The notes beneath the pieces were generated by a model, which saw nothing but the letters and a program-made list of their open reading frames with translations, ran no database searches and was not told where the DNA came from. A DNA stretch of 36,378 bases from the NCBI GenBank assembly GCA_937923565.1, contig CALDTX010000088.1, forward strand, positions 1 through 36,378, in the 5' to 3' direction. A program made the position numbers and the translations under genes. This document shows, piece by piece, positions 13,826-32,714 of the stretch; within the stretch, counting starts at the first letter, position 1, and the number at the start of each line of letters is the position of its first letter. The stretch comes from an uncultured Granulosicoccaceae bacterium. Its GTDB lineage: Bacteria; Pseudomonadota; Gammaproteobacteria; Granulosicoccales; Granulosicoccaceae.

Positions 13826-13855
13826 GCTAAACGCCAACTCTGCTTGGCGTTTAGC
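13826..13855 (+). terminator. Intrinsic terminator-like hairpin GCTAAACGCCAA-ctctgc-TTGGCGTTTAGC
   Basis: Perfect 12-bp stem with 6-nt loop, followed by GTTTAACTTGTT. Confidence 0.7.
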
Positions 13856-13878
13856 GTTTAACTTGTTACCGTTAGACG

Positions 13879-14793: not shown

Positions 14794-14798
14794 ACGCT

Positions 14799-15701
14799 CT
14801 AAACAAGCCTGTAAGCTTGCGCCGCGTTGTTTTTAAAAATATGTTGCAACGACGATTCAGGTAGATGCTGTAACGCCAAAAGCAGTTGTTCAATGCCATA
14901 ATCAAACGTGTTCATTAACTTATCAACGGGAAAATTGCTTCCGTACATCACTCGCCTATCACCGAAGGTGTCGACAATGCAGTTAACTATTGCCTGAACG
15001 CTTACGGCAGACCACTTCTGATCGAACATACCAAAGCCTGATAACTTGATGGATACATTAGGTAATTGCGCTAACAACTGCAAACCATCTGCCAGCATTT
15101 TTAAACCCGCTTGCGACTGATCATAAGGACTGCCAGCGTGATCAATAATCACATGGGTGTCCGGGTGCTGGCTAATAAACTCAGCCGCCTCCGCCATTTG
15201 CTCTGGATACAGTTGCAAGTCGAATGAAAAGTTGTACGACTTTAACAAGGCATAGTTACTGCGCCATTGATTGTTACGCAAGAAATGTTCACCGGCAAAA
15301 CTTAATGTCGGGTTGTTATCCTGACGGCTCAATATGTGTCTGATACCACACACGTAAGGTACTTTCGACAACGCCGCAAGCGTGGTTTCAGCATCCTCAT
15401 TCGATAAATTGGTTAACGCAACAATGGCATGCTTGGCATTCGACTGAGCAAACACCGATGCCACCCATGCAGCCTCATTAACAACATCAGCGATAGCACC
15501 ATCCACTTGTACATAGACTGATCCATCAAGGCTGTGCGAAGCTGATTCGCTGTGGTATTCAGACCAGATGTAATCTCGTTGGATCGGAGTTGGGTCGCCA
15601 AAGGGTTTAATGGCGCCGATATCGCGCAACCAAGCGTAGCCTAAGTCGGGCTCTGAGCGCTCAGGTATCCATAGATGATGATGTGAATCGATAATATTCA
15701 T
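14799..15701 (-). CDS. Amidohydrolase family (TIM-barrel, fuconolactonase/PDC hydrolase-like) protein
   Basis: MNIIDSHHHLWIP, VIIDHAGSP, YGSNFPVD; 18 bp downstream of uraH on the same strand. Confidence 0.85.
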   Translation of the reverse strand: MNIIDSHHHLWIPERSEPDLGYAWLRDIGAIKPFGDPTPIQRDYIWSEYHSESASHSLDGSVYVQVDGAIADVVNEAAWVASVFAQSNAKHAIVALTNLSNEDAETTLAALSKVPYVCGIRHILSRQDNNPTLSFAGEHFLRNNQWRSNYALLKSYNFSFDLQLYPEQMAEAAEFISQHPDTHVIIDHAGSPYDQSQAGLKMLADGLQLLAQLPNVSIKLSGFGMFDQKWSAVSVQAIVNCIVDTFGDRRVMYGSNFPVDKLMNTFDYGIEQLLLALQHLPESSLQHIFKNNAAQAYRLV

Positions 15702-15719
15702 GATTGCAGCAACAGCCTA

Positions 15720-16061
15720 TTAAGAGCCACGATAGGTGGAATAGCCAAACGGGTTTAGCAGCAGCGGTACATGATAATGCTGACCATCCGCTTCAATTTC
15801 GAACACAACATCGACAAACGGGTAAAACGATTGCTGATTTTTTTGAGCGTAATAATCGCTTAAATAAAACGTTAACTTGTAAATTCCGCCGGGCAACGGA
15901 TCTTTCGAGCTGGTAAAGTCGGTTACTCGTCCGTCGGCATTGGTTTCACCGGTGCCTAGCATGACCCAGTCGTCGGCACTTTGCTGTTGTAAAATAATTA
16001 ACACATTAGCAGCCGGCTTACCCAGCGACGTGTCCAATATATGTGAAGTAATTTGCGTCAT
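15720..16061 (-). CDS. uraH: 5-hydroxyisourate hydrolase (transthyretin-like)
   Basis: ITSHILDTSLGKPAANV..., HYHVPLLLNPFGYSTYRGS C-terminal signature. Confidence 0.96.
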   Translation of the reverse strand: MTQITSHILDTSLGKPAANVLIILQQQSADDWVMLGTGETNADGRVTDFTSSKDPLPGGIYKLTFYLSDYYAQKNQQSFYPFVDVVFEIEADGQHYHVPLLLNPFGYSTYRGS

Positions 16062-16117
16062 AAGGCTTTCTTAACGTTGGTAAACAAACATTGAGTACAT
16101 GAGTACACTTTAGTCGA

Positions 16118-17062
16118 TCAAGCCCCCTCACTGCTTTCCAGTGAGCGCCGCAGCTGCCCTGCATTTTGTGCCAACAACTCTGTGGCATCGGACACGCTGC
16201 ATTCTTTTGCTACCATAAGCACCGCATTTTTTACCTGCCAATCGGCCTGTTTCAATGCCAGCAAAGCTTGCTTCTTATTAGCCCCGGTGATATCCACCAC
16301 CAAATTGACTGCTCGGGCCTTGAGCTTTTCGTTACTGGCGTTTAAGTCAACCATGCGGTTACCAAAACATTTACCAATGCGCACCATGGCACCAGTGGAT
16401 ATCATATTCAGAACCATTTTCTGCGCGGTTCCGGACTTTAACCGTGTGGACCCCGTTAAAACTTCCGGTCCAACATTTACGCACACACTTATATTAGCTA
16501 TTTTTTCCAAAGGGCTCACTGGATTACAGCTTACGCCTACTGTTGTGGCAGCGCGTTTGTCTGCTTCCGCTAAAGCGCCTAAAACAAAGGGGGTGCGCCC
16601 CGATACAGCTAATCCTATGACGATATCTCGTTGATCAACATTGCATTCAGCAAGCGCATTTGCGCCTAGCGTAGGGCTGTCTTCAACCCCTTCCTGTGCT
16701 TTGAACATAGCATCAGGACCACCGGCTATTAAGGCCAATACTTTTTCGCCAGGCATGGAGAAAGTGGGCGGAATTTCAGAGGCATCCAAGATCCCTAACC
16801 GACCACTGGTACCGGCTCCCACATAAATAATACGCCCACCACTGAGTAAAGCGCTAGCCGCAGCATCAACCACCTGTGCAATAGCAGGCTTAACTGCCGC
16901 TACAGCTTCAGCCACTTGCTGATCCTGTTGATTCATCAGTGTTACAAGTTCGAGCGCGGTCAGTTTGTCGAGCTCAACCGAGTGCGAACTTGAGGCTTCG
17001 GAAGGCAGATGTGAGAGCTCAGCGGCCAGAATTAAAATCTTTTCATCCATTTTTGGAATCAT
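16118..17062 (-). CDS. murQ: N-acetylmuramic acid 6-phosphate etherase
   Basis: SIS motif RIIYVGAGTSGRLGILDASEIPPTFSMP, VGPEVLTGSTRLKSGTAQKMVLNMIST; start may be 17050. Confidence 0.95.
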   Translation of the reverse strand: MIPKMDEKILILAAELSHLPSEASSSHSVELDKLTALELVTLMNQQDQQVAEAVAAVKPAIAQVVDAAASALLSGGRIIYVGAGTSGRLGILDASEIPPTFSMPGEKVLALIAGGPDAMFKAQEGVEDSPTLGANALAECNVDQRDIVIGLAVSGRTPFVLGALAEADKRAATTVGVSCNPVSPLEKIANISVCVNVGPEVLTGSTRLKSGTAQKMVLNMISTGAMVRIGKCFGNRMVDLNASNEKLKARAVNLVVDITGANKKQALLALKQADWQVKNAVLMVAKECSVSDATELLAQNAGQLRRSLESSEGA

Positions 17063-17102: not shown

Positions 17103-19004
17103 ATGAACACACTTTGGCAAACACTTATGTATAAACTGCGCGCAATCGGCGCAAGCTATACGCTGCTCGCTGCACTTCTGTTTGGCGCAGGATTATGGTG
17201 GTTATTGACGCCTGCAATGTTCCACAAAGGTTGTTTAAAACTTGAAAACGGGTTGGTTATTTGCGCCAATAGCGATATGGCCAGATTCCACCAGACACAA
17301 GCCATCAGTGCCGATCACGATAGTTTCGACCTTCAGGATAAACGCCTAACTATTGAGGCAGCCCGCAATGAGAGTATCAGCTTCCAGCTGATGCTACGTT
17401 CAACCAGCGACGCGATCACTGATCCAATCAATATCATCCACTCTAATTGGCGTAGCGATAAAAAACATAACACAGCGGCTCAAAGCAAGGCCAAACCCGA
17501 TACAACGTTGCATTTGGCGCATTATCATTTTGTGAACAACGGTGGGTATCAATGGGGCCCAAAGAGCGAAGTGCTGACATGGCCAGCGGCTTACCCGGAT
17601 GCATTGATCCCGCAAGTCAAACAGTGCGGCACTGCGAAAAACACGCTGTTCGATGCTGTAAAGGCACCAGACAAAGACACCAATCAGGCGGTTTGGGTTG
17701 AAACCTTTGTACCGGCTGAAACACCAGCCGGGCTGTATCGGCAAACCATCAGTTTGAATATCGCCGATACAACCGTAGCACTCGATGTTGAACTAACTGT
17801 TCATGCTGTCACATTGCCACAAAAACCAAGCATCGCCGCTGTCGGTGAAATTTATCGCAGCTACAAACTCGAAGGTGCAGGCGAAAACCCAAATTCTGAT
17901 GCCTGGCGAGACATGTCATATTGCTATCAACAGTTAGCGCATCAACACAGAATGGTGTTTATTGAACGCTATGATGAGCAACCGATAAAAGAAGATTGGG
18001 CATACTATCAAGCACATGTTGAGCCTTTACTCAGCGGCGCTTTATTCAGTGATGCGTTTAACTACACAGGCACTGGAAAAAACGTGGCTGTATCTACCTG
18101 GCGTACACCATGGCCACAACAATTTAATGTTTCTTTACAGGAACCTTTGAGCGAATCTACGCTGAGCAGGTATACAGACATGGCGGCTCAATGGGATGAG
18201 TGGCTGCACAAGAATAACTTCTCCAACACTTATTTTTTCGCTTACGTTTTTGATGAACTCGATGGTCCCAGAAAACCTGATGTGGAGATGGCAGCATACC
18301 AACAGTACATAGCCATGGTTCACGAACAAATGGGCGAGCTGCAAAAAGCAATCGACAAAGGCACAACCTTTACATCGTTAGACTTACTCTGGACCAGCCA
18401 CTCCAATCCAGCGCAATGGCAAAACGATACTGCGCTTGATCTCACCGGAAAAATTAGACTGTGGGCACCGAACGCCAGTGCTGCTGATGTTACCTTTTTA
18501 CAAAAAAGAATTAAAGCAGGTGAACAAGCTTGGTTCTACCACAGCGGACATCCAGCGATCGGCATCCACAGCATTAATGCATCTGGCAGCGAAATGCGCA
18601 CATGGGGCATCGCAGCAGCCCGTTACGGTTTCCAAGGACAGCTTATGTGGGCAGTGAATTTGGGTAATGATGATCTGCCGTTTGCTCAGCCCAGTTACAA
18701 ACCTGAAGACGACAGGTTTGGTAACGGCGTTATGGTTTATCCCGGCAATCAACTCGACAAAATTGGCTTCAAAGCCTCACCCGGACCAATCGCTTCTATG
18801 CGCCTTAAAGCATGGAGACGTGGCTTACAGGATGCTGAATTGTTTTTTTTAGCTATGCAGAAAAATCCACAAAAAGCGCAGCGATTAATAACGGAAATTA
18901 TGCCAGCCGCGTTATCGGAAGGTCGCAAAAAAGCTGCATGGCCATCGGATGCCGCAAGTTGGATGCATTTTAGAAGCCGCTTGCTTGAGCTTGCCAGCAA
19001 ATAA
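17103..19004 (+). CDS. DUF4091 (GH123-related) protein, membrane-anchored or exported
   Basis: N-terminal TM; C-terminal RTWGIAAARYGFQGQLMWAVN...GNGVMVYPG...SMRLKAWRRGLQDAELFFLA; VFDELDG acidic pair. Confidence 0.8.
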   Translation: MNTLWQTLMYKLRAIGASYTLLAALLFGAGLWWLLTPAMFHKGCLKLENGLVICANSDMARFHQTQAISADHDSFDLQDKRLTIEAARNESISFQLMLRSTSDAITDPINIIHSNWRSDKKHNTAAQSKAKPDTTLHLAHYHFVNNGGYQWGPKSEVLTWPAAYPDALIPQVKQCGTAKNTLFDAVKAPDKDTNQAVWVETFVPAETPAGLYRQTISLNIADTTVALDVELTVHAVTLPQKPSIAAVGEIYRSYKLEGAGENPNSDAWRDMSYCYQQLAHQHRMVFIERYDEQPIKEDWAYYQAHVEPLLSGALFSDAFNYTGTGKNVAVSTWRTPWPQQFNVSLQEPLSESTLSRYTDMAAQWDEWLHKNNFSNTYFFAYVFDELDGPRKPDVEMAAYQQYIAMVHEQMGELQKAIDKGTTFTSLDLLWTSHSNPAQWQNDTALDLTGKIRLWAPNASAADVTFLQKRIKAGEQAWFYHSGHPAIGIHSINASGSEMRTWGIAAARYGFQGQLMWAVNLGNDDLPFAQPSYKPEDDRFGNGVMVYPGNQLDKIGFKASPGPIASMRLKAWRRGLQDAELFFLAMQKNPQKAQRLITEIMPAALSEGRKKAAWPSDAASWMHFRSRLLELASK

Positions 19005-19047: not shown

Positions 19048-19761
19048 TTAAATAGCGAACTGCAAGGTGATGCGTCTGTTGTGTTTGCTTTTCTTCTGAA
19101 TTTTTGAACAAACAACCTCCCCAATTTCAGCGGTTCCCGCTACATGTGTACCGCCACAAGGTTGTAGGTCGATATCGGCGATTTTTACCAAACTGACAGC
19201 TCCACCAATGATGGGAGGTTTGACATATTTGCTGCGGGTTAAGCGCTCGATTTCCTGCTCTATATTTTCTGTGATATGAAGCTTTTGCACTTCGTGATTA
19301 GCCACTATGAGCTCGTTAAGCTGATCACTTAGCTCAGTCTTATCGAGCGTCATTTCTGGCAGATCGAAATCCAAACGACCTTTATCGGTCGAGATGCCGC
19401 AGCCCGTAACTGGCGCATCAATCAAGCTACACAACAAATGCAAGCACGTATGCATTCGCATATGCAAATATCGCCTGTTCCAATCTATTTTCAAACAAAT
19501 CTGATCACCCACGGACGGTAACTTAGTTGGGTTTTCTATTTCATGCCAAACCAGTTCCAGGTTCTGTTTATCGCGATAAGTATTACTGACTGACAATAGT
19601 TCCTGAGCAAACCCAATGCTACCAGTATCACCCGGTTGGCCACCACCCACCGGATAAAAACAGGTTTGATCCAATGCTATCGCATTGTCGGCAACTGCTA
19701 TGACACTTGCATCAGTGGCCTGCTCATAGGCCGACTGGTCAAAAATTAAGTTTGTATTCAT
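19048..19761 (-). CDS. Stand-alone alanyl-tRNA editing protein AlaX
   Basis: FYPVGGGQPGDTG, HTCLH zinc motif, QPCGGTHVAGTAEIG. Confidence 0.9.
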   Translation of the reverse strand: MNTNLIFDQSAYEQATDASVIAVADNAIALDQTCFYPVGGGQPGDTGSIGFAQELLSVSNTYRDKQNLELVWHEIENPTKLPSVGDQICLKIDWNRRYLHMRMHTCLHLLCSLIDAPVTGCGISTDKGRLDFDLPEMTLDKTELSDQLNELIVANHEVQKLHITENIEQEIERLTRSKYVKPPIIGGAVSLVKIADIDLQPCGGTHVAGTAEIGEVVCSKIQKKSKHNRRITLQFAI

Positions 19762-19853: not shown

Positions 19854-20885
19854 TTACGTCAACACAGAGTTGAATTGCGCAACCCGAGGTTTGACGTCTG
19901 CAACCATTAATCTGCGCATTAATTCAGATAATCCCACTGGCCGCATGAAATACGATACAGCGCCTTTTCTGCACAGGCGCAAATTTACTTGCGAAGGCAC
20001 TTCATAGACAAAATCATGATCACAATTTATTGCATACTCGACAATCGCTCGGTCTGAATAAATTCTGGATAAGCTAAATCCTTCTATAAGTGCCAAGCGC
20101 TCGTCCAACAAAGAAAGCGAATACTCTTTCGCCTGTATGCCTAGAATATGCAGTAGATCCCCCTTCACATAAGCTAACAAGGGTTGAACTGACGGTGATT
20201 TTGCATTGCTGTCTTTTTGAATAAGCAGTTGATTAACAATGCTTACCTTTGATTGCGCAGGCACATCAGTTACCACAACACTATAAGGACTAATAAATAC
20301 GGCGTCGCCTATCGAAACCGGGCCTAGAATGCGAGCATGTGCACCGACTTCCACATTATTGCCGATTCTGGGATGTCTACTGGCTTGAGGATTATTTGAA
20401 ATACCCAACGAACCTAGAATCACACCATTGAGAATGTAGCAGTCGTCACCTATTACGCAGGTTTCACCGATAACCGTACCAAAGCCATGGTCAATCACAA
20501 ATCTGGAACCGATTTTGGCACTGGGGTGTATATCAATGCCAGATGCCAGCTTCCCTCTTCCGCTTAACTTATGTGCGATATTCATCTTCTGCGCGCGACG
20601 CAAAGGAAAGTTGTTAACCACAAAGTGAGCGATTCGATAAGACAGAACAGCTTGAAATGACACATAGCTTTCAACAATCAACAATGGATCGTTATGGGAT
20701 GACGGGTCTTTAGCCGCAAACGCTTCTGCATCCAATACCAGCTCACAACAAACCGTAAGCATTAGGTCATTGATGTTGTCGCCGCAGCGCTCAAGCTCGT
20801 GAGCGGTAAAGCATGCTTGAAGTTCGTTGAGCATTCGACCTTCAATACTATTTAACAAGTCGCCGTTAACCATGTTGATATGCAT
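19854..20885 (-). CDS. Serine O-acetyltransferase (CysE-type) with about 118-aa C-terminal extension
   Basis: Hexapeptide LbH: IDIHPSAKIGSRFVIDHGFGTVIGETCVIGDDCYILNGVILGSLG...SRHPRIGNNVEVGAHARILGPVSIG; both CysE catalytic His contexts kept (DHGFG, SRHPRI). Confidence 0.88.
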   Translation of the reverse strand: MHINMVNGDLLNSIEGRMLNELQACFTAHELERCGDNINDLMLTVCCELVLDAEAFAAKDPSSHNDPLLIVESYVSFQAVLSYRIAHFVVNNFPLRRAQKMNIAHKLSGRGKLASGIDIHPSAKIGSRFVIDHGFGTVIGETCVIGDDCYILNGVILGSLGISNNPQASRHPRIGNNVEVGAHARILGPVSIGDAVFISPYSVVVTDVPAQSKVSIVNQLLIQKDSNAKSPSVQPLLAYVKGDLLHILGIQAKEYSLSLLDERLALIEGFSLSRIYSDRAIVEYAINCDHDFVYEVPSQVNLRLCRKGAVSYFMRPVGLSELMRRLMVADVKPRVAQFNSVLT

Positions 20886-20888
20886 TTT

Positions 20889-21815
20889 CTATTCAAAATC
20901 TGAAAGATAGGACTCTAGTCCATCGTACGCCATAGTCAGCACAGTGCTTCCGTTCGGCAGCTGTGACGCTAGCATTTCTATAGCTACTAAATTAGCAGCT
21001 GATGAAATGCCTAAACTCAATGATTCGTTGCGAAGTGCAAACAATGCCATATTCATACAGCTTTGTTTGCTTACTTTAAACATACCGTCTATGCAACTTA
21101 AATTCAGGACATCTGGTACCAATCCGATAGAAAGCCCTTGAATCTCATGGGCGCAATGCTTATCGTTGAGTAGATCGCATTGTTCTGGCTCAACACCATA
21201 GGTTTTCATGTTGGGCCATTTAGCTGTTAGTACTTCCGACACTCCGGTTATGTGACCACCTGTTCCTATGCCCGCGACATAAGCGTCTACTTGTCCAGTC
21301 GGAAAATCATCGAGTATTTCTTGTGCGGTAATTCGTCGATGTACCTCAGGATTTGCCAAATTTCTTTGCTGATTCAGCATCACATAATTGGAGTTTTCCA
21401 AGATTAACTCCAGGGCTTTTTCACCATGCGAGTTATTTCCAGTACTACTGTCAGACAAAATTACTTGCGCACCGTAAAGCCTAAGTAGTTTCTGCTTCTC
21501 AACGCTGTAGTTATCCGGAACCACTAAAATAACGTTGTAACCGTATAGGTTCGCACACATGCTTAGGCCAACCCCTGTGTTACCGCCACTGGGCTCAACA
21601 ATGGTTTGTCCGCTCCCACGAGTGAGTACGCCTTTACGTTCGGCATCCGCGATCATGTTGCTGGCTACACGAACCTTATGGCTGCCACCGGGATTAAGTG
21701 ACTCCATTTTCATCAGAACGTTCAATTGCAACGCTTCGCTCAATGCATTGAGCCTAACAATAGGTGTATTGCCAATTACACCAAGTATGTTCTGATGTAT
21801 CAAAGAAATATCCAA
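20889..21815 (-). CDS. Cysteine synthase family PLP enzyme (O-acetylserine sulfhydrylase-like), apparent TTG start
   Basis: GNTPIVRLN, NPGGSHKVRVASNMI (PLP Lys), EPSGGNTGVGLS, GIGTGGHITGVSE; in-frame TAA just upstream leaves only non-ATG starts. Confidence 0.9.
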   Translation of the reverse strand: MDISLIHQNILGVIGNTPIVRLNALSEALQLNVLMKMESLNPGGSHKVRVASNMIADAERKGVLTRGSGQTIVEPSGGNTGVGLSMCANLYGYNVILVVPDNYSVEKQKLLRLYGAQVILSDSSTGNNSHGEKALELILENSNYVMLNQQRNLANPEVHRRITAQEILDDFPTGQVDAYVAGIGTGGHITGVSEVLTAKWPNMKTYGVEPEQCDLLNDKHCAHEIQGLSIGLVPDVLNLSCIDGMFKVSKQSCMNMALFALRNESLSLGISSAANLVAIEMLASQLPNGSTVLTMAYDGLESYLSDFE

Positions 21816-21867
21816 GCAAAGAAAGTCGAACTGCGCTTAATGGAAATTAAGTCGTCAGCAATTAAAA

Positions 21868-23295
21868 TTAATAAATTGGCATCGATGGTTCAACTTCTCT
21901 CACCCATCGCTTCATGCCACCAGCTAAAACACAGACGTTTTCCACGCCTGCATTAATAAGTTCTTCAGCAGCACTTTTAGCTCTCACACCCGAATAGCAA
22001 ACAATACATTTATTCTGCGATCCGTGCATTTGCGCTAATTTCAGCGATATATCATTAAGCGGGATGTTAACAACCCCAGGTAGTGCGCAAACTTCTAATT
22101 CATTTGGATCTCTAACATCAACGAGCAAATATTGATCAATCTTCGTTTCCAACTCTTTTGGCGAAATGTAGAAATCTTTTGGCAGTGACGATTCGGAAGC
22201 TATTGATTCCACAATACATTGGGCAGCTTCTTCCGTATGTCTGATTGTTTTTCGATTGGAGCTGCAATCTGGACAGTCGTCTCTTTTGGCATAGCTTACT
22301 TCGTTAAAACGCATACTCAGCGCATCCATTACCAGCAACCTACCACTAAGAACATCTCCAAGCTCAATGATAACTTTAATAGCTTCAGTTGCTTGAATAA
22401 CACCGATAATACCGGGTAAAACACCGATTACACCACCACTGGAGCAATTTGGTGCAAGTTCAGGCGGAGGACTTGTTGGAAATAAACAGCGATAGCATGG
22501 ACCATTTTTATAATTTAATACGCTCACTTGACCATCAAACCGGTAAATAGCACCAAAAACCAGTGGTTTTTGCAGCATGCTGCAAACATCATTAACCAAA
22601 TACCGCGAATTAAAGTTATCGGTACCATCAACAACAAGATCGTATTCTGAGATTAGCTCCAACGCATTGTCTTCACCCAACCGAACCTGATGAGTGTTTA
22701 CAGTGATATCCGGATTTAAATCCATTAACCGAGACTTCGCAGATTCCACTTTCGACATACCGATGGTTTTGGAGCCATGCACTATTTGCCGCTGCAGATT
22801 GCTTAGCTCTACTAAATCAAAATCAACTAAGCCGATCGTGCCTACTCCGGCCGCTGCTAAATAAAGACTAACCGGGGAGCCTAATCCGCCTGCACCAATA
22901 ATGAGCACGCGAGCATTTTTTAATTTTGCCTGACCATCTCTGCCTACACCAGGCAACGTGATATGGCGAACATAACGCTTCACTTCTTCATTTGATAGTT
23001 CTTCTATATCCGCTTGATTTAGCGGGCTGCCCATGCCACCAGCACTGGCTAAGAGAATATTGACTTTGGCATCAGCCGGTAAGGTTTGTTCAGGCGTTAC
23101 CTGTGCACCATCGGAGGTGAGCAAGAAATGTTCTTTAATCTGACCGTTTTGATGAAACAAGTGAGTTTGTAATGCGCAGTTTTCGCTGCATATGCTTTTA
23201 ACCACGTCATTAAGTGTATTACCTTCAGCGTAAAATGCTTTGTTGTTGAGTTTAGCTGCCTTAACAAGCGCATCTGGCAATATGACTTCTATCAT
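21868..23295 (-). CDS. Ubl (MoaD/ThiS/CysO-like)-E1 (MoeB/ThiF-like)-rhodanese fusion protein
   Basis: Residues 1-87 beta-grasp-like ending ASAGG; E1 core RVLIIGAGGLGSPVSLYLAAAGVGTIGLVDFD, VDGTDNFNSRYLVND, zinc CYRC/CPDC; rhodanese VDVRDPNEL...CYSGVRA; GGAG SD, ATGA overlap with the JAMM gene. Confidence 0.93.
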   Translation of the reverse strand: MIEVILPDALVKAAKLNNKAFYAEGNTLNDVVKSICSENCALQTHLFHQNGQIKEHFLLTSDGAQVTPEQTLPADAKVNILLASAGGMGSPLNQADIEELSNEEVKRYVRHITLPGVGRDGQAKLKNARVLIIGAGGLGSPVSLYLAAAGVGTIGLVDFDLVELSNLQRQIVHGSKTIGMSKVESAKSRLMDLNPDITVNTHQVRLGEDNALELISEYDLVVDGTDNFNSRYLVNDVCSMLQKPLVFGAIYRFDGQVSVLNYKNGPCYRCLFPTSPPPELAPNCSSGGVIGVLPGIIGVIQATEAIKVIIELGDVLSGRLLVMDALSMRFNEVSYAKRDDCPDCSSNRKTIRHTEEAAQCIVESIASESSLPKDFYISPKELETKIDQYLLVDVRDPNELEVCALPGVVNIPLNDISLKLAQMHGSQNKCIVCYSGVRAKSAAEELINAGVENVCVLAGGMKRWVREVEPSMPIY

Positions 23296-23774
23296 TGTAC
23301 TGCTCCGATTTCTGGTTCCAAACGACCATATTCCATAATATTTAATGGGAATGTGTAAACACATTCATAGTTATTGTTAGTCCAGGCAAATAGCTTTGCC
23401 TCAGACACTTCATGCTTTTTTACGTCAACCACTAAATACTTCACGGGATAAACCGGTTCACCGCAATATAAAGCGTTGGCAACATCCTCATCACTAAAAT
23501 AAGCACCAACATCGGGGTGTGAATGATAAATGATTGATGCAGGCGCATCAGACTCAAAGCTCATGTTTAAATTAATGGTGTCTTCGACTGATAAAGTATA
23601 AGCCTGACGAGCGTTGCGTTTATGCACTTTTGGATCTTTCCGGTGCAAGCGGTTCTGAATATTCTCACAGCGTACAACTTGACCAGACTCTCGCACAAAC
23701 CCGCAACATTCCTCCGGGTATTCTTTAATTGCATGCAAAGCAATTTTTCTTAATTGTTGGGAATTTAAATTCAA
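23292..23774 (-). CDS. JAMM/MPN metallopeptidase (Mec+/QbsD-like)
   Basis: YPEECCGFV and exact HxHx7SxxD motif HSHPDVGAYFSDED (codons 23484-23525); GAGGAAG SD. Confidence 0.93.
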   Translation of the reverse strand: MNLNSQQLRKIALHAIKEYPEECCGFVRESGQVVRCENIQNRLHRKDPKVHKRNARQAYTLSVEDTINLNMSFESDAPASIIYHSHPDVGAYFSDEDVANALYCGEPVYPVKYLVVDVKKHEVSEAKLFAWTNNNYECVYTFPLNIMEYGRLEPEIGAVQ

Positions 23775-24739
23775 CCTGGCTTCCTCGACAGTATTTTCAA
23801 TACCTGCGATCTAGCCGGCAATTTCGTTAAACTAAACCCGAATAAAATCAGGATTAAATAAAAGAGGCTATCGAAACCGAATCTGGAACCTTCGTACCAG
23901 GCACCAATTGCAACTGCTAATGCCGGAAAAATAATAAAGACAAAAGACAACACATTAGGACTCATGTGCTTGAGCAAATAGAAATATGTGATGAACCCAC
24001 CCACTGACGCCACAATGCCTAAATAGAGCGTGGCTAGCACTGATCTTTCCGAGATCATCGACAACGAAGGTTGTTCAATAAATATACCGGCAATCGTTAG
24101 CAGTAAACCGGCTATTCCGATGGGTAATACATTAAACGTTAAAACGCTGATGGAACCACCATAGCGTTTCGTTAGAACGTACGATAATGCATGCATTATG
24201 GCGGCAACAAGAATGCAAAAAACACCAAGTAAGCGCGTGTGCTCCAGATGCAAACCTTGCGATCGGATGATCAGCATTAAGCCAAGAAAACCAACCAACA
24301 TACCGATTGATTGCGTAAACAGAATTTTTTCGTTGAGTATTAATGCTGAAAAAATAAGGATAAAAACCGGCATTGTGCTGAACAGTAAAGCCGTTAAGCC
24401 AGACGATACGTACAACTCACCAAAATTCAGCAGCCAATAAGGGACAGCAAAATAAAACAGCGTGGTAAAAATAAAAAAGATATTCAGCCTTTTTGGAAAA
24501 AAAATGGATTCGCCGCGAACTATTGCAAAAAGAAAAAACAGAGGGAACGCAACAAGAAATCTTAGGCCAGCTGACGTGAGGGGAGGAATTGACTCTACCG
24601 CTATACCGATACCAAGCCAGGTTGTTCCCCAGCAAACGCACACAACCGCATACAGAAATGGAATTACCAGTGCCTTATGAAAGCTAAACCTCGGTAATAG
24701 AAAAGAAACCTTCGCTAATGATTTGGGTTCAAGTTGCAT
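23771..24739 (-). CDS. EamA/DMT superfamily transporter
   Basis: About ten hydrophobic segments, two EamA repeats (VCVCWGTTWLGIGIAVESIPPLTSAGLRFLVAFPLF...); ATG at 24739 preferred over TTG at 24745; 4-nt overlap with the JAMM gene. Confidence 0.9.
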   Translation of the reverse strand: MQLEPKSLAKVSFLLPRFSFHKALVIPFLYAVVCVCWGTTWLGIGIAVESIPPLTSAGLRFLVAFPLFFLFAIVRGESIFFPKRLNIFFIFTTLFYFAVPYWLLNFGELYVSSGLTALLFSTMPVFILIFSALILNEKILFTQSIGMLVGFLGLMLIIRSQGLHLEHTRLLGVFCILVAAIMHALSYVLTKRYGGSISVLTFNVLPIGIAGLLLTIAGIFIEQPSLSMISERSVLATLYLGIVASVGGFITYFYLLKHMSPNVLSFVFIIFPALAVAIGAWYEGSRFGFDSLFYLILILFGFSLTKLPARSQVLKILSRKPG

Positions 24740-24780
24740 CAGCAACTGTCGCGATCAATTGTCTGCTCTGCTTAACAAAT

Positions 24781-24809
24781 ATATTATTGCAAGGTGTCAT
24801 TTGGTTCAA
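24781..24809 (-). promoter_or_regulatory. Candidate sigma70 promoter of the Ubl/JAMM/cysteine operon: TTGAAC-N17-TAATAT (minus strand)
   Basis: -35 at 24809-24804, -10 at 24786-24781, spacer 17 nt. Confidence 0.55.
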
Positions 24810-24825
24810 ATTCCCTTAGAATGAC
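24796..24825. promoter_or_regulatory. Operator-like inverted repeat GTCATT-N18-AATGAC
   Basis: Overlaps the -35 of the operon promoter, between the divergent MocR-type regulator and the operon. Confidence 0.35.
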
Positions 24826-24861
24826 CGTCAATGTATTCAATGAAAGGATACGACTTTATTT

Positions 24862-26271
24862 ATGCATGTCAATAGCAAAATTGACAGAGTGTCAATTCTC
24901 AGAAAAGCGTTAACAGAAGGATCCGACCTTAAATACAAAAGGCTTTCGGCTCAACTAGAAGCGATGATTCGTGAAGGTCACTTTGCGCAGGGAGAAAAAC
25001 TTCCTACTCATAGAAGATTAGCAGACCAACTTAGCGTAACAGCGGGTACGGTCAGCAAAGCCTATTCTGAATTACACCTCAATGGTTTGGTGAATTCGCA
25101 CGTGGGCAGCGGTACTTATGTTGGCCCTATCGAGCATGGAAAAACGTTTAGTAACTTTGAAAACTATGAAGATTTTCCACGTGAGAATTTTGATCTAAGT
25201 AGAAGCTCTGCACTAACGCTAAAAGACAACCCTGTTTTCAGAAAGACTCTGGAACAAATGACGTTACGTCAGGATGTCATAACGCAAATGTCTCAATACG
25301 GGCCAGAACAAGGCTATGTTGAACATAGGAAAGCCGGTGCCAACTGGATCAGCCACCAGAGTTTCAAAGCATCTTACGACCAAGTCATTTGTACAAATGG
25401 CGCGCAACACGCGTTGTTTTGCATTCTACTCGCGTTATTAAAACGCGGCGATGCACTTCTGAGTGAAAGTTTTACCTACCCCGGCTTAATATCAGCTTGT
25501 CGTTCTTTGGGTATCAATATTATTGGTTTAGCCATGGACGATGAAGGCATTCTACCCAGCGCACTTGATGCGGCTTGCAAAAAGAACAAGGTAAGTGCGC
25601 TTTACTGTATGCCAACAATGCAAAACCCAACGACCGCTGTAATGAGTGAAGCTCGCCGTGTTGCAATTGCTGAAATATGCTTAAAACACAATATATTAAT
25701 TTTAGAAGACGAAGCACACGCGGTACTGGAAAAAGAGCGGCCACCACCAATAAGTTTTTACGCACCTGAAAGGTCAATTATCATTTCTAGTTTAAGTAAA
25801 GCCGTAGCAGCTGGAATTCGTGCCGGGTTTATTCATGCTCCTTCTACACTGGTTCAACGCATAAGCAGAGCTGTTCGCAGTACCTGCTGGATGCCAACAC
25901 CTATTGCTATGTCTGTGGCTTGCCACCTAATTGAAACCAACGCCATTAAGTCTTTACTGGATCTACAAATCAGCGAAATTAGTCGGCGAAAAAGCTTAGT
26001 CAGCCCCATGTTTCAGCATAAAAACGTTAAAACACACAAACACAGTCCGTACTACTGGATTGAAGTGCCTCATGGTTGGAGAGCGTCTGATATTGCAGAA
26101 GAAGCAAAACAAAAAAACTGTTTAGTCTCTACTGCAGAAGCTTTTGCCGTTGACCGACATCGAACCGCACCTTATCTGCGCGCCAGTGTCAGCAACCCAA
26201 CAGTTAGTGAACAAGGCATCGTATCGGGTTTTAAAATATTACTGGATGTATTAAATAACCCAGCAACTTGA
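24862..26271 (+). CDS. MocR/PdxR-type transcriptional regulator (GntR wHTH + aminotransferase fold)
   Basis: IREGHFAQGEKLPTHRRLADQLSVTAGTVSKAYSELHLNGLVNSHVGSGTYV; PLP-fold with SSLSKAVAAGIRAGF. Confidence 0.93.
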   Translation: MHVNSKIDRVSILRKALTEGSDLKYKRLSAQLEAMIREGHFAQGEKLPTHRRLADQLSVTAGTVSKAYSELHLNGLVNSHVGSGTYVGPIEHGKTFSNFENYEDFPRENFDLSRSSALTLKDNPVFRKTLEQMTLRQDVITQMSQYGPEQGYVEHRKAGANWISHQSFKASYDQVICTNGAQHALFCILLALLKRGDALLSESFTYPGLISACRSLGINIIGLAMDDEGILPSALDAACKKNKVSALYCMPTMQNPTTAVMSEARRVAIAEICLKHNILILEDEAHAVLEKERPPPISFYAPERSIIISSLSKAVAAGIRAGFIHAPSTLVQRISRAVRSTCWMPTPIAMSVACHLIETNAIKSLLDLQISEISRRKSLVSPMFQHKNVKTHKHSPYYWIEVPHGWRASDIAEEAKQKNCLVSTAEAFAVDRHRTAPYLRASVSNPTVSEQGIVSGFKILLDVLNNPAT

Positions 26272-26281: not shown

Positions 26282-27100
26282 CTAAAGGATTTTTAAAGCG
26301 GCTCGGTTCAGTTGATGGGCAGCATTCAACGCCAGTAATTCTGCGCTTACAGCCACGGCAATTTCCATGGGTAAATTGCCAGTGGCGTATGCTTGCCCAA
26401 TAGGCGTAATGAGTTTGCCTAATTCGTCACCTGTGAATTGTTGCTTACGCAGTTTGGAACGAAACTTCGCCGCCTTAGACTTTGACGCAATCAAACCACA
26501 AAAAGGAACTTCTGGTTTCGACAAAATTGCTTCAACTAAGTCGTAGTCCAATTCATGCGAATGCGTCATCACTAAGTAACTAGCCTGATCAGCGCATTGC
26601 TCTACTAGCTCAAACGGATTGTTACCCATTAACTCACCCAACAACACACCTTGCGCGGTTTCGCTACTGGGTAATTGGTCTAACCAGCTCTGTCTAGTAT
26701 CATAAAACGTTGCATGACAATCTAATTGGTGAACAATTTTAGCCAACGCTTGCGCCACATGCCCAGCACCGAAAACAATGAGCTCAAAGGCCTTTTTAGG
26801 ATGCAACTCATATTGCAGCTTTACACTACCACCGCAACATTGGGATAAAGCAGACCCTAGAATCAGCTTGTTGTGCCGAATCAGTGGAACGTTACTGTTT
26901 TCGGCGAGAATTGATCTGGCTGCGGCAATAGCTTCTAACTCTAACGCACCGCCGCCAATGGTGTCACTGGCATCGTGTTCAGTAACAACCATACGCGCAC
27001 CAACATCACGGGGCGTTGATCCATCAACCTCCACAATGCTGACAACCACGCAATCGATATTGCGGTTACAGGCATTATTGAGTGCTTGCAGCCAGCGCAT
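26282..27100 (-). CDS. xdhC: Xanthine dehydrogenase accessory protein XdhC
   Basis: VEVDGSTPRDVGARMVV...TIGGGALE; VFGAGHVAQALAKIV; start at the Met overlapping the xdhB end. Confidence 0.93.
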   Translation of the reverse strand: MRWLQALNNACNRNIDCVVVSIVEVDGSTPRDVGARMVVTEHDASDTIGGGALELEAIAAARSILAENSNVPLIRHNKLILGSALSQCCGGSVKLQYELHPKKAFELIVFGAGHVAQALAKIVHQLDCHATFYDTRQSWLDQLPSSETAQGVLLGELMGNNPFELVEQCADQASYLVMTHSHELDYDLVEAILSKPEVPFCGLIASKSKAAKFRSKLRKQQFTGDELGKLITPIGQAYATGNLPMEIAVAVSAELLALNAAHQLNRAALKIL

Positions 27101-27104
27101 AAAA

Positions 27105-29432
27105 TCAAACCACACCCGTTTTATTGCTTTGTTCAGCAACTAAATCACACACTCGTAGAACCTCTTCCGGTGTTGCCGGTGCGTTCAAAGCAGGAAAAAC
27201 CTCGTGATTTGCGATGGAGGCTATGGCATCGCGGATAGCGCAAAAAACCGAAATGGCTAACATCAATGGTGGCTCACCCACTGCCTTTGAGCGAAATACC
27301 GTTGGAGCTTCATTCGGGCTGTTCTGCAATAAATCAACATTAAATTGTGTTGGAGCATCGCTGATCGCAGGTATTTTATAAGTTGCAGGCCCAACAGTTA
27401 ACAAACGACCTGCACCGTCCCATTTAAGCTCTTCACTGGTTAGCCAACCAAGACCTTGAATATAGCCACCCTCTATCTGCCCCCGATCGATAGCAGGGTT
27501 AATCGAATGCCCAACATCGTGCAAAATATCTGTACGCAATAATCGGGTTTCACCGGTAAGAGTATCTATGATGACTTCACTAACAGCTGCACCATTGGCA
27601 AAGTACAAAAACGGACTGCCACTTGCTGTTGTTCTGTCGTAGAAAATATTCGGCGTTTTATAAAACCCGGTAGCACTTAGCTGCACTCTCGCTAAATACG
27701 CTTCGTTTGCAAGCGCGGGCCATGTATAGTGTTGTTGCTTACTGCTCGCGTCTATCCCACTGACCACAACTTCATCGTTAAGGAACTGAATATTATGTTC
27801 CGAAACATTGTGTTTCTCAATCAGAAAATCTAACAGCCGTTGTTTGAGTTTATTCGCGGCATCCAACGCAGCCATACCATTTATATCGGTTCCCGAAGAC
27901 GCCGCCGTTGGCGATGTATTTGGTACCTTATCTGTTCTGGTCGCGCTAATAGCCACCCTGTCTAAATGCATACCCAACGTGGTAGCGACCACCTGAGCCA
28001 CCTTTACCATTAGACCCTGGCCCATTTCCGTGCCACCATGATTTAACATAACACTGCCATCATTATACAAATGCAACAAAGCACCACCTTGGTTCAGGTG
28101 GCTAACGGTAAACGAAATGCCGAATTTAACCGGCGTAAGTGCCAGCCCCTTTTTTAGAACCTGACTGTGTTGATTAAATTCACGTATGGCTATGCGACGT
28201 TTGCGATAGTTGGAAGTTGCTTCCAGTTCGTCAATAAGACGCGGCACTGAAAACGCATCTATTGTTTGTTTGTACGGCGTAATATTTCTGCTTCCAATAT
28301 CATACAAATTACTTTTGCGTACATCGAGCGGATCAAGTTTCAATTTAAACGCAATAGCATCGATAACCGCTTCCGCTGCCATCATTCCTTGTGGCCCACC
28401 GAATCCTCGAAATGCAGTATTCGACACGGTGTTGGTTTTACAACGAATTCCATCGATTAACACATTCGGCAAGTAATAGGCGTTATCGCAGTGAAACATC
28501 GCTCTATCGACAATGGCATCCGAAAGATCAGGGGAATTACCACATTGTCCGGCTAGTACATGATGAACGCCGACGATAACGCCGTTGTTATCGAAACCCA
28601 CTTCGTACTGGTTGTAAAACGGATGCCGTTTGCCGGTTAATATCATGTCTTGAGATCTTGATAATCGGCAGTTCACTGCACATTGATTTCGAACTGCAAA
28701 CAAGGCTGCAAAAACACAGCACGCTGTTGCTTGAGTCTCTTTACCGCCAAACCCACCCCCCATACGACGCGTTTCAACAGTGACGCTGTGCATGGTCAAC
28801 CCGAGTACACCTGCTACCAAATGCTGTGCTTCGGTGGGATTTTGATTAGAGGAATATACAGTTACACCACCTTGCTCTGTGGGTATCGCCAGTGCCACCT
28901 GCCCTTCAAGGTAAAAATGCTCCTGACCTCCAATATACATTTCTCCACTGATACGATGCGGAGCCGCATCTAAGGCCGCACTGACATCACCCCGCCTCAT
29001 TTGATGCGGCGGCCGCACATAATGCTTTTGATGCAGCGCAGCTTTTAAAGTGAGTATCGGTTCGTGTTCGGTGTAAGTTATCGACGCTTTGCGAACAGCG
29101 ATCTGTGCTTCTCGGTACGAACGAGCGGCCACCGCGAAGATCGCCTGCCCACAAAACTCCACCGTGGTGGATGTCAACAAGGGATCACCAGGGAAAACAG
29201 CGCCAATATCTTTTAAGTGGTGTAGATCTGATTCCTGCAAAACATCGACAACTCCTTCGCTACTTTTCACCGCCTGCAAGTCAATTGATTGTATTGCACC
29301 GGCGGCAATTTCAGCCATGCCAATAGCTACATGCAATTGCGCAGCTCTGGGAGGGATATCGTCTACATAGATTGCGCTGCCTGTTACATGGGCAGCAGCG
29401 CTATCGTGCTTTATGCCCTTACCTACCGACAT
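27105..29432 (-). CDS. xdhB: Xanthine dehydrogenase molybdopterin-binding (large) subunit
   Basis: GKGIKHDSAAAHVTGSAIYVDDIPP, GGFGGKETQA, TNTVSNTAFRGFGGPQGM, GGTEMGQGLMVKVAQV. Confidence 0.96.
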   Translation of the reverse strand: MSVGKGIKHDSAAAHVTGSAIYVDDIPPRAAQLHVAIGMAEIAAGAIQSIDLQAVKSSEGVVDVLQESDLHHLKDIGAVFPGDPLLTSTTVEFCGQAIFAVAARSYREAQIAVRKASITYTEHEPILTLKAALHQKHYVRPPHQMRRGDVSAALDAAPHRISGEMYIGGQEHFYLEGQVALAIPTEQGGVTVYSSNQNPTEAQHLVAGVLGLTMHSVTVETRRMGGGFGGKETQATACCVFAALFAVRNQCAVNCRLSRSQDMILTGKRHPFYNQYEVGFDNNGVIVGVHHVLAGQCGNSPDLSDAIVDRAMFHCDNAYYLPNVLIDGIRCKTNTVSNTAFRGFGGPQGMMAAEAVIDAIAFKLKLDPLDVRKSNLYDIGSRNITPYKQTIDAFSVPRLIDELEATSNYRKRRIAIREFNQHSQVLKKGLALTPVKFGISFTVSHLNQGGALLHLYNDGSVMLNHGGTEMGQGLMVKVAQVVATTLGMHLDRVAISATRTDKVPNTSPTAASSGTDINGMAALDAANKLKQRLLDFLIEKHNVSEHNIQFLNDEVVVSGIDASSKQQHYTWPALANEAYLARVQLSATGFYKTPNIFYDRTTASGSPFLYFANGAAVSEVIIDTLTGETRLLRTDILHDVGHSINPAIDRGQIEGGYIQGLGWLTSEELKWDGAGRLLTVGPATYKIPAISDAPTQFNVDLLQNSPNEAPTVFRSKAVGEPPLMLAISVFCAIRDAIASIANHEVFPALNAPATPEEVLRVCDLVAEQSNKTGVV

Positions 29433-30909
29433 GGTCTATTACCTGTGTGCGCACCGAAGGGCTATTGACGTTTAGCCAGCAGCGTTTAACCAAATTAGCA
29501 GCAACTCGTTGGCGATAAGTTGCGCTTGCTCTGGCATCGCTAATGGGTGAGAAGTCTTCGGCTAAGGCTTTCTGGACGTTGGCAAGTGAAGAATCATCCA
29601 GAACTTTACCCACTAGAGCTACTTCTGCATTTGTTGCTCGCTTGGGTACTTCTGCCATTCCGCCGAAGGCAATTCGCGCTTTACGGACAAGCCCTTCGTT
29701 TAACTCAAGACTAAAAACGCCACATACGGCAGATATGTCGTCGTCTAACCGTTTACTAATTTTATAAACAAAGGTTGTTGACCCTGCAACAGGGATAGGA
29801 ATATGAATGCTTCTTATAAACTCATCGTTAGACAACGCTGTTTTTTTATAAGCAATGTAGAACTCTTCAAGCTTTAGCTGGCGAGACTGTTCACCACATT
29901 GAATACATAGACTGGCATCCATGGCTAACAATAACGGTGGCAGGTCTCCAATGGGAGATGCGTTTGCAATATTCCCGCCTATGGTTCCTTGGTTGCGTAC
30001 TTGTTCAGAACCAAAACGCAACATCATCGCTTTACTATTCGGCACTATTTTTTGTAATGCGTCCATACAGCGGTTTAACGAAACTGCAGCTCCAATAACC
30101 AGCGTATCAGCACTTTCTTTAATGCCTATTAGCTCCGGCACGTTCTTCAAATACAGAACGGTATCGATACTCTTTTGAAATTGCGTTACTTCCAAACCTA
30201 AATCGGTGCCACCGGCTAACAATCTGGCTTCAGGATAGTTAATACGCAAGTTCGCCAGTTCACCTAGGGAGCTCGGTAAATAAAACCGAGCATCCATCGG
30301 GGGATTCTCAACAAGTGAGTTTAATTTTTTTATGGTGGCTAGTTCTGCCTGCTCAAATTGATCTGGCTTGTAGAGTTGTAAGGCACTCAGCGCAGCTCGA
30401 CGAATAGGTGCATAGCCAGTACAACGGCATAAATTGCCACCCAGGTAGCGATCTATTAAGTGCAATAGTTCAGTCGGTGACTCGTTTATAGCATTGGCAG
30501 CTTCTGCTTTACCCAGCACAAGCGCTTGGCGGTTATGCACCAACGCAAACAAAGACATAATAAAACCCGGAGTGCAGAAACCACATTGCGAACCGTGCAG
30601 ATCAACCATTGTCTGTTGAACCACATGCAGTTGCTTATTCTGAGCCAGTGCTTCAACGCTAATAAGTTGTTTTGCATGCAAGGAACCCACAAACGCAATA
30701 CAACTGTTTATTGAAAAATAGTTTAATGTTGCCGTGCCATCAGTTGCAGGCTCAGCAACAACCACCGTGCAAGCACCACAATCGCCAGTGCCACAACCCT
30801 CTTTGGTACCGGTTTGTGCGGCATGCTCTCGAAGCCACTCTAAAACTGTGGTATCAGCCCGACTCTGCTCTAGCGTAATAACTTCGTTATGGTATAAAAA
30901 TCGTATCAT
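29419..30909 (-). CDS. xdhA: Xanthine dehydrogenase small subunit (2Fe-2S + FAD)
   Basis: GCGTGDCGACTVV, GSQCGFCTPGFIMSLFAL, GGNLCRCTGYAPI, FAD domain LLAGGTDLGLEVT. Confidence 0.96.
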   Translation of the reverse strand: MIRFLYHNEVITLEQSRADTTVLEWLREHAAQTGTKEGCGTGDCGACTVVVAEPATDGTATLNYFSINSCIAFVGSLHAKQLISVEALAQNKQLHVVQQTMVDLHGSQCGFCTPGFIMSLFALVHNRQALVLGKAEAANAINESPTELLHLIDRYLGGNLCRCTGYAPIRRAALSALQLYKPDQFEQAELATIKKLNSLVENPPMDARFYLPSSLGELANLRINYPEARLLAGGTDLGLEVTQFQKSIDTVLYLKNVPELIGIKESADTLVIGAAVSLNRCMDALQKIVPNSKAMMLRFGSEQVRNQGTIGGNIANASPIGDLPPLLLAMDASLCIQCGEQSRQLKLEEFYIAYKKTALSNDEFIRSIHIPIPVAGSTTFVYKISKRLDDDISAVCGVFSLELNEGLVRKARIAFGGMAEVPKRATNAEVALVGKVLDDSSLANVQKALAEDFSPISDARASATYRQRVAANLVKRCWLNVNSPSVRTQVIDHVGR

Positions 30910-32714
30910 GAGCCGCCAACAAATAAATCGGTCTTAGAAAACGTCGTTACATCAATAAGACCAATATCCGAAATACGTAATTCGGGAATAACAACCAAAG
31001 CAAGCAGCGAATGCTGCATATAGGCATTGTTTAGATCACAGCCGCAGGTTTGCATTGCTTCAACCATGCTCTGCGCTTTTTGTGCAACCGATTCTGCTCG
31101 CTCATCCGACATCAAACCTGCTATTGGCAATTCTATCAACGCGAGCTGCTCACCGTCTGCGTAAACAGTTACACCACCACCAACATCGCCTAACTTGTTA
31201 ACGGCTAAGGCCATTTGTTCATGGCAGGTACCAACAACAATCATGTGATGTGAGTCGTGCGCAACCGTAGAAGCAACCGCACAAGGAACAGTGTACTTAA
31301 ATCCCGATACAAAGCCGTTGACAACATTGCCTGTAGCGCGATGTCTTTCCACCAGCGCAATCTGACAAATATCGTTAGACAGATCCATGCCAACCAATGA
31401 GTTCTCAACAGTTAAAGTGGCTTGTAAGGCTTTAGTGGGTGCTTGGTTTTCGATAACACCGATAACGCGCACATCAACACTACCGCTCTGTTGCCCTTCA
31501 GGTGCAGCTATCTGAAAATCCTGGGCCTGATACCGTTTGCCCAAATGCACGGTATTTTTAGCACTGTCTGGGTAATGAGCCGCTGGAATATCGCATTGCA
31601 GTTGCGCATTTTCAGCCAATACTTCGCCCCTAGCGATCACCATATCGATAGGCAAAGTGGCTAAATCGCTACTGATAATAATATCGGCTAATCGCCCCGG
31701 ACTGATTGAACCCAGCTCGCGCTCCAAACCAAAATGTTGTGCTGTATTCAAGGTTGCCATCTGAATGGCAGTTATGGGTTTCAGGCCCTGCGCAATAGCA
31801 TGCCGGACTACTCGGTTCATATGCCCGTCGTTAACCAAGGTGCCGGAGTGTGAATCGTCGGTGCACAAAATAAAATTTCGAGAGTCGAGCCCAAGTTCGG
31901 TTATCGCTTTAACTTGCGGCGCAACGTCATACCATGCTGAACCCAATCGGAGCATGGCCCGCATGCCTTGTCGCACTCGGGCAACAGCATCTTCCAAACA
32001 AGTGCCTTCATGATCATCGGCTGGTCCACCAGCAACATAACCATGGAAGGCTCTACCTAAATCGGGAGAAGCATAATGACCACCCACTGTTTTATTGGCC
32101 AATTGTGCAGCAGCAATTTCGCCGAGCATGGTTTCGTCGCAGGCTGCAACACCGGGAAAATTCATGACTTCACCCAAACCAATAATATTGGGCCACGACA
32201 TCGCATGATTAACTTCGGCAACTCCGATTTGCGCGCCTGCATTTTCGAGCCCGGGGGCTGACGGCACACAACTGGGCATTTGAACAAATACATTGATGGG
32301 CATTTGCACGGCTTCATCGTGCATCAATTTGACACCCGGCAAACCGAGCACATTGCCGATTTCATGCGGGTCAATAAACATTGACGTGGTGCCATGAGGA
32401 ACGACGGCGCGGGTAAATTCGGTTACCGTAACCATACCGCTTTCAACATGCATATGAGCATCGCACAGGCCGGGCACCAGATAACGGTCAGCGGCCTCGA
32501 TAATTTGGGTTTTACTACCTTCAGTATGGGCGGCATCCGGGCCAACGTAGGCGATTCGACCATCAACAATGGCAATATCAGTATTCGGGATAATTTCGCC
32601 GGAATACACGTTAACCCATCGGCCTGAACGAATAACCGTATCAGCTGGGGTTCGCCCCATGGCGACATCAATGAGCTTTTTAGCGTTTTCGGCCCACGGT
32701 TTCACTTGTTGCAT
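30906..32714 (-). CDS. ade: Adenine deaminase
   Basis: YLVPGLCDAHMHVESGMVTVTEFTRAVVPHGTTSMFIDPHEIGNVLG, CTDDSHSGTLVNDGHMNRVVRHAI; start at Met 32714. Confidence 0.93.
   Translation of the reverse strand: MQQVKPWAENAKKLIDVAMGRTPADTVIRSGRWVNVYSGEIIPNTDIAIVDGRIAYVGPDAAHTEGSKTQIIEAADRYLVPGLCDAHMHVESGMVTVTEFTRAVVPHGTTSMFIDPHEIGNVLGLPGVKLMHDEAVQMPINVFVQMPSCVPSAPGLENAGAQIGVAEVNHAMSWPNIIGLGEVMNFPGVAACDETMLGEIAAAQLANKTVGGHYASPDLGRAFHGYVAGGPADDHEGTCLEDAVARVRQGMRAMLRLGSAWYDVAPQVKAITELGLDSRNFILCTDDSHSGTLVNDGHMNRVVRHAIAQGLKPITAIQMATLNTAQHFGLERELGSISPGRLADIIISSDLATLPIDMVIARGEVLAENAQLQCDIPAAHYPDSAKNTVHLGKRYQAQDFQIAAPEGQQSGSVDVRVIGVIENQAPTKALQATLTVENSLVGMDLSNDICQIALVERHRATGNVVNGFVSGFKYTVPCAVASTVAHDSHHMIVVGTCHEQMALAVNKLGDVGGGVTVYADGEQLALIELPIAGLMSDERAESVAQKAQSMVEAMQTCGCDLNNAYMQHSLLALVVIPELRISDIGLIDVTTFSKTDLFVGGS

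Follow-up and report, generated by a model that had tools for sequence, protein, structure and literature searches.

The window analysed here is a stretch of 36,378 nucleotides from an uncultured Granulosicoccaceae bacterium (Gammaproteobacteria; contig CALDTX010000088.1 of assembly GCA_937923565.1), and its central part carries a cassette of seven genes built around a putative ubiquitin-like (Ubl) sulfur carrier. On the minus strand lie an EamA-family exporter (23771 to 24745, exact start uncertain; Pfam EamA E 1.6e-40), a JAMM metallopeptidase with a TTG start (23292 to 23774; Prok-JAB E 1.8e-13), a 475-amino acid Ubl-E1-rhodanese (Rhd) fusion (21868 to 23295; ThiF E 1.6e-84, Rhodanese E 2.4e-14), a CysK-like pyridoxal phosphate (PLP) enzyme (20889 to 21815; PALP E 4.8e-68) and a serine-acetyltransferase-like protein (SAT; 19854 to 20885; TIGR01172 E 3.6e-40). 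Divergent from them, on the plus strand, is a MocR-type regulator combining a GntR DNA-binding domain with an aminotransferase fold (24862 to 26271; GntR E 8.6e-16, Aminotran_1_2 E 6e-27). A first-pass annotation of the sequence had placed and assigned these six genes as Pfam and NCBIfam do, and had taken them for the whole unit. It missed the seventh member, an AlaX alanyl-tRNA-editing protein on the minus strand (19048 to 19761; tRNA_SAD E 1.9e-11), which is adjacent to the cassette in all but one of 42 related loci and truncated in one more.

The genes are tightly packed. The overlap of the JAMM gene and the fusion at 23292-23295 is ATGA as annotated; that of the EamA and JAMM genes at 23771-23774 had been given as ATGA too and reads TTGA. 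The 3-nt gap at 20886-20888 between the CysK-like and SAT genes was correctly placed, as was the 52-bp gap at 21816-21867, which becomes 64 bp if the CysK-like gene starts not at the TTG at 21815 but at that at 21803, the position equivalent to the start in relatives. The AlaX gene begins 92 bp downstream of the SAT gene in the window and usually touches or overlaps it in relatives.

A distinctive feature of the cassette is the junction inside the fusion. The N-terminal Ubl domain proposed by the annotation (residues 1-87; 23035 to 23295, minus strand) was confirmed by its end-to-end BLASTP alignment with a free 87-amino acid MoaD/ThiS protein of Paraburkholderia (E 9e-8), which likewise ends in AGG, and by matches of the relatives' Ubl segments to Pfam ThiS (E 5.6e-5 and 4.4e-4); the window's own segment, searched alone against Pfam, gave no match above threshold. 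Gly86-Gly87 (23035 to 23040, minus strand) is invariant in 27 fusions and 14 further loci, Gly87 falls where the free Paraburkholderia protein ends, and between the pair and a conserved LSN[ED]E motif lies a linker whose length varies. A structure model of the fusion shows a beta-grasp-like order of elements over residues 1-80 (predicted local distance difference test, pLDDT, 75-87 by block) and low confidence at residues 84-112, as expected for a linker. Because the models of the fusion and of the SAT are of modest confidence (predicted template modelling scores, pTM, 0.51 and 0.53), the relative positions of domains were left uninterpreted. The E1 domain (22270 to 22974, minus strand, Pfam) resembles MoeB and Uba4; its zinc cysteines C267, C270, C341 and C344 and the cysteine at the catalytic position, C284, are invariant in 16-27 copies. 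The rhodanese domain (21898 to 22164, minus strand, Pfam) bears the active-site loop of Cys433, and C433, G436 and R438 are invariant in the fusion alignment.

In every readable copy the Ubl is fused to E1-rhodanese and its Gly-Gly is internal, unlike the free Ubl of the CysO type. The terminal glycine of a Ubl is not open to adenylation while it is held in a peptide bond; cleavage is therefore required by logic, and the CysO-type scheme put forward in the annotation does not hold as it stands: an extra cleavage step is needed. We infer that the cassette Ubl is a pro-Ubl cut after Gly87 before thiocarboxylation, for which the cassette JAMM is the obvious candidate peptidase. Processing of fused ThiS/MoaD proteins was proposed in general by Iyer et al. 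2006 (PMC1779556), MoaX requires cleavage after Gly82 (PMC4326299), and DRJAMM cuts a MoaD-MoaE fusion, leaving a C-terminal glycine (PMC8832034).

In 32 of the 35 carriers found in one Pseudomonadaceae-like genus, the JAMM frame runs on through Ubl, E1 and rhodanese; the JAMM-Ubl-E1-Rhd chains placed in the tree form a single clade. A ribosome-binding-like GGAG precedes an internal ATG in genomes with this chain, and a separate Ubl-E1-Rhd may therefore also be made. At locus L105 (8452-10342) a frameshift, possibly a sequencing error, sits precisely where Ubl and E1 meet in the chain, and the protein ends in LATSGERA.

The catalytic residues of the other enzymes are equally well preserved. 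In the JAMM protein, the motif HSHPDVGAYFSDED (23484 to 23525, minus strand) together with Glu22 supplies all ligands of the pattern E...HxH-x7-S-x2-D; motif and upstream glutamate are present in 28/28 loci checked and invariant in alignment A1, and the closest solved sequence is 2kcq (E 2.7e-5). The CysK-like enzyme retains the PLP lysine, and every full copy checked carries NPGGSHK[VA]R and EPSGGNTG, in which SHKVR and SGGNTG replace the canonical SVKxR and TSGNTG of E. coli CysK and CysM. These enzymes form their own clade on a long stem, nearer CysK than CysM, and the window protein has the CysK-like QGLSIGLVP where the two CysM proteins compared, those of E. coli and of its own genome, have IRRWP. 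The use of O-acetylserine as acceptor, suggested by the annotation, fits a co-encoded SAT and a synthase that is by sequence of the CysK rather than the CysM type. The SAT residues matching CysE catalytic D132, H133 and H171 are invariant. In place of the CysK-binding C-terminal tail of canonical CysE, the SAT has an extension of about 110 residues (19857 to 20192, minus strand), modelled as a beta-rich domain, for which no Pfam family was found and for which Foldseek on the SAT model gave only weak Ig-like matches (E 0.02-0.1). The SAT extensions of three Pseudomonas loci (L056, L057 and L087) end in IVGG, a Ubl-like Gly-Gly tail that the window SAT lacks.

AlaX proteins are editors of Ser-tRNA(Ala). 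The cassette AlaX has the tRNA_SAD domain and, in 28/28 loci checked, the HxxxH and CxxxH zinc motifs; it scores 193 bits against NCBIfam AlaXM, below the cut-off of 300. The exporter is 55-63% identical to the copies of relatives. The best NCBIfam match of the regulator is EhuR, at 402 bits under a threshold of 480, and its gene is divergent from that of EamA in every related locus read (n=42) except L037. The intergenic region between the two (24746 to 24861) is the presumed control region; an operator motif common to the window and the Pseudomonas MocR/EamA intergenic regions was looked for and none was found. Altogether, the gene content supports the proposal of a cassette with genes for the sulfur source, for the carrier and its activation, for acceptor synthesis and condensation, and for a peptidase, an exporter and a regulator.

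Conservation of the neighbourhood had been named in the annotation as a check on that proposal. The order MocR, divergent from EamA-JAMM-Ubl/E1/Rhd-CysK-SAT-AlaX, is kept in the same orientation in 39 of 42 related loci read, a count that takes in L105 and L146, each with one frameshifted gene. It extends well beyond close relatives to other genera, at roughly 35-65% protein identity, a recurrence far beyond chance. Searches of genome samples for the JAMM, which covered the window's own phylum, found carriers in 3/48 genomes of the window's order, 2/369 of the class sample and 6/399 of the phylum sample, as against 35/200 in the Pseudomonadaceae-like genus mentioned above and 48/399 (about 12%), in four genera, across the corresponding family; the PAO1 gene order and ppsA-type flanks suggest that this family is Pseudomonadaceae. 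Most Pseudomonas-type loci share their chromosomal flanks, which indicates that the cassette is old in Pseudomonas; it is patchy in the window's genus. The cassette E1 proteins form one clade outside the MoeB-rhodanese outgroups (support 98/90), a grouping to be read with caution in view of its long branches. These outgroups came from a scan of genome contigs with the whole fusion, which returned only E1/MoeB-type proteins without the cassette. A JAMM search of plasmids gave no match, and the top plasmid CysK match, from Sphingomonas, had no cassette around it. Among viral contigs, a scan with the CysK alignment picked out a single phage-like one, whose CysK is of the ordinary kind (NPGGSVKDR).

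Three loci depart from the common order. At L037 (genome G001) EamA and MocR are absent and the E1 has a frame break; at L136 AlaX is absent after SAT (11700-13200) in a cassette otherwise intact; and at L137 the E1 coding region runs straight into the end of AlaX (8179-9437), a deletion having taken out rhodanese, CysK and SAT, from which it follows that the cassette can decay. Directly after AlaX at L037, on the same strand, lies a nonribosomal peptide synthetase (NRPS)-like gene with condensation and adenylation regions (13427-16375). Next to the cassette no other biosynthetic gene turns up repeatedly, and in Pseudomonas its neighbours are fixed chromosomal ones only. Elsewhere in the window, XdhC, two xanthine-dehydrogenase-like subunits and an adenine-deaminase-like gene (26282-32771) adjoin the cassette and are not conserved with it, and a glycoside hydrolase 123-like protein with a hydrophobic N-terminal stretch is encoded at 17103-19004.

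In Pseudomonas aeruginosa PAO1 the cassette corresponds to PA2100 (regulator, mdrR2), PA2101 (EamA), PA2102 (JAMM), PA2103 (MoeB-like), PA2104 (cysteine synthase), PA2105 (acetyltransferase) and PA2106 (AlaS-domain hydrolase), in the same order as in the window (PMC9431628, PMC9866376, PMC13256707). N-acetylcysteine induces PA2100-PA2103 (table values 0.7, 1.7, 1.2 and 0.8, respectively; PMC9431628), and RpoH induction raises PA2101-2104 and PA2106 2- to 4-fold (PMC9866376). On either sulfate or thiosulfate, mutation of cysE (PA3816) leaves PAO1 auxotrophic (PMC13256707), and double mutants in cysK and cysM are auxotrophs that recover late, for which the authors suggest PA2104 or PA1061 (PMC12800425). 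The window genome itself holds a separate MoeB-like E1 beside a prmC-like gene, a CysM and three other ThiS-family proteins, and the cassette is thus distinct from the housekeeping set. No canonical CysE was found in this assembly, which is 75% complete; as all ten other genomes tested have one, four cassette carriers among them, its absence is probably an assembly gap. Retention of CysE, the PAO1 auxotrophy and the induction data together make it most likely that the cassette is an inducible, specialised module and no housekeeping route to cysteine.

We therefore favour, at a probability of about 0.55, an inducible specialised sulfur-carrier cassette whose product, built on the fused Ubl, is cysteine or a compound derived from it. 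The gene content and its conservation, the intact catalytic residues and the Gly-Gly that stays invariant at a variable junction are observed; of the steps that follow, formation of the thiocarboxylate, condensation and release of cysteine are drawn from the known chemistry of the families, and regulation, cleavage of the precursor, export and tRNA editing from the anatomy of the locus only. MocR would sense an amino-acid-like ligand and turn the operon on, and JAMM would free the C-terminus of the Ubl by cutting the Ubl-E1-rhodanese precursor after Gly87. E1 would then adenylate the Ubl and the rhodanese persulfide, by way of the E1 cysteine, would convert it to the thiocarboxylate (Ubl-COSH). 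SAT would supply O-acetylserine, and the CysK-like enzyme would join the aminoacrylate and Ubl-COSH to give Ubl-Cys after rearrangement, from which JAMM would free cysteine while the Ubl re-enters the cycle. EamA may export the product or overflow, and AlaX may clear tRNA(Ala) that has been mischarged on account of the amino acids that the cassette handles. A more elaborate version, which we put forward tentatively, is a self-processing polyprotein in which cleavage after Gly-Gly would serve first to activate the carrier and afterwards to release the product, and in which the exported amino acid would poison alanyl-tRNA charging, hence AlaX; it draws on the single chain of most Pseudomonas carriers, and the window has two chains.

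Several observations weigh against the favoured explanation. Both CysM and the Ubl-linked Aliarcobacter synthase are more distant from the CysK-like enzyme than is CysK, which works on O-acetylserine and sulfide; the enzyme could therefore use free sulfide. The SAT falls under the canonical CysE cut-off (TIGR01172, 137.6 versus 210.65 bits). Since the PAO1 cysE mutant is still a cysteine auxotroph, PA2105 does not compensate, and the complete cassette proposed in the annotation is not self-sufficient for cysteine in PAO1 under standard conditions although PA2105 is present (PMC13256707). Finally, AlaX, EamA and MocR are not strictly required, as the loss of AlaX at L136 and the lack of EamA and MocR at L037 indicate.

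The almost constant company of EamA and AlaX also suits a different product, another beta-substituted alanine or a small exported sulfur metabolite, with EamA as its exporter and AlaX guarding the producer from misuse by alanyl-tRNA synthetase. The unusual SHK and SGGNTG motifs of the CysK-like enzyme, its long stem in the tree and the NRPS gene that directly follows the cassette at L037 point the same way. However, that NRPS occurs in one genome only, no additional biosynthetic gene recurs beside the cassette, and the sulfur-transfer core indicates cysteine chemistry; we regard such a product as possible but rather doubtful. Somewhat less probable still is a stress module for serine/cysteine imbalance, in which SAT and the CysK-like enzyme would drain serine, AlaX would remove Ser-tRNA(Ala), the editing activity for which its family is generally known, EamA would export the excess and the Ubl would supply bound sulfur without free sulfide. 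The canonical CysE retained by carriers is consistent with it, as is induction by RpoH and N-acetylcysteine in P. aeruginosa (PMC9866376, PMC9431628), but it overlaps with the favoured cassette and differs in purpose only.

Two further roles are improbable. A part for the Ubl in tagging proteins, on the lines of archaeal SAMPylation and with JAMM taking the tag off again, is hinted at by the best match of JAMM, a desampylase model (28.5 bits), and by a weak match of the Ubl to SAMP1 (E 3.4e-4), but CysK and SAT are co-encoded in 41/42 loci and the E1 carries a fused rhodanese, which makes this very unlikely. Supply of molybdenum cofactor to the adjoining xanthine dehydrogenase, for which the MoeB-like E1-Rhd and the xdh genes of the window might speak, was rejected as most improbable of all, the window genome having another MoeB-like E1 and three further ThiS-family proteins elsewhere, the cassette having no moa genes, and no XdhC being found next to it in the other loci read.

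With the sulfur-carrier cassette favoured here, PA2100-PA2106 acquire a function that can be tested; this P. aeruginosa operon is uncharacterised, and its PA2104 and PA2105 are loose ends in recent papers on cysteine biosynthesis. If the proposal is true, JAMM would act at both ends of a sulfur-carrier cycle, a new architecture reminiscent of ubiquitin-precursor processing, and sulfur-carrier chemistry would be tied to tRNA proofreading and export; if the cassette runs on bound sulfur, it would offer a sulfide-free route to cysteine under stress.

The gene set is, as the annotation supposed, uncharacterised, but it is not unlisted: besides being PA2100-PA2106 of PAO1, its core appears as class 4c of Iyer et al. 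2006, with P. aeruginosa named (PMC1779556), and the kind of system was therefore already known. The window carries the components of that class, a Ubl, an E1 fused to rhodanese, a JAB/JAMM protein and a cysteine synthase, in one operon. The text and table for class 4c treat the Ubl as an ordinary member, make no mention of SAT, AlaX, EamA or MocR, and do not discuss a Ubl-E1 fusion or conservation of the Gly-Gly (PMC1779556). In the open-licence papers searched, we found no description of the seven-gene unit, of an obligatory pro-Ubl fusion with conserved Gly-Gly, of the JAMM-Ubl-E1-Rhd chain or of the AlaX link.

To our knowledge, the CysO operon of M. tuberculosis has no SAT, exporter, AlaX or MocR. 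The CysO/CysM/Mec+/MoeZ system of that species shares the scheme of Ubl thiocarboxylate, E1-Rhd, synthase and cysteine release by JAMM (PMC3227635), whereas its CysO is a free Ubl and its CysM uses O-phosphoserine. In M. tuberculosis MoaX (PMC4326299) and D. radiodurans MoaD-MoaE (PMC8832034) the Ubl is likewise fused and cut after Gly-Gly, in the latter by a JAMM, but the partner is MoaE, the product molybdopterin, and the chain includes no E1 or rhodanese. The thioquinolobactin (qbs) and pyridine-2,6-dithiocarboxylic acid (PDTC, pdt) modules share the E1-Rhd, Ubl and JAMM core; their Ubl is separate and an acyl-AMP ligase and a CoA transferase replace CysK and SAT (PMC1779556). On the Aliarcobacter cibarius plasmid pACIB (L039), a cluster shares cysteine synthase, M67 JAMM, MoaD/ThiS, E1, rhodanese, cysE and cysK, but all genes are separate, the synthase is CysM-like, and genes for sulfate uptake, encapsulin and cysteine desulfurase are present; this cluster (1684-12780) adjoins a family 2A encapsulin with cysteine desulfurase cargo. 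A second Ubl/E1 setting was seen on a Paraburkholderia megapolitana plasmid (L038, 5198-10597), where YcaO, TfuA, MoaD/ThiS, ThiF and a major facilitator superfamily protein are encoded in a row. Compared with these systems, the cassette appears to be a new, fused and stress-inducible version, equipped with an exporter and a tRNA proofreader, of a general pathway type that is already known.

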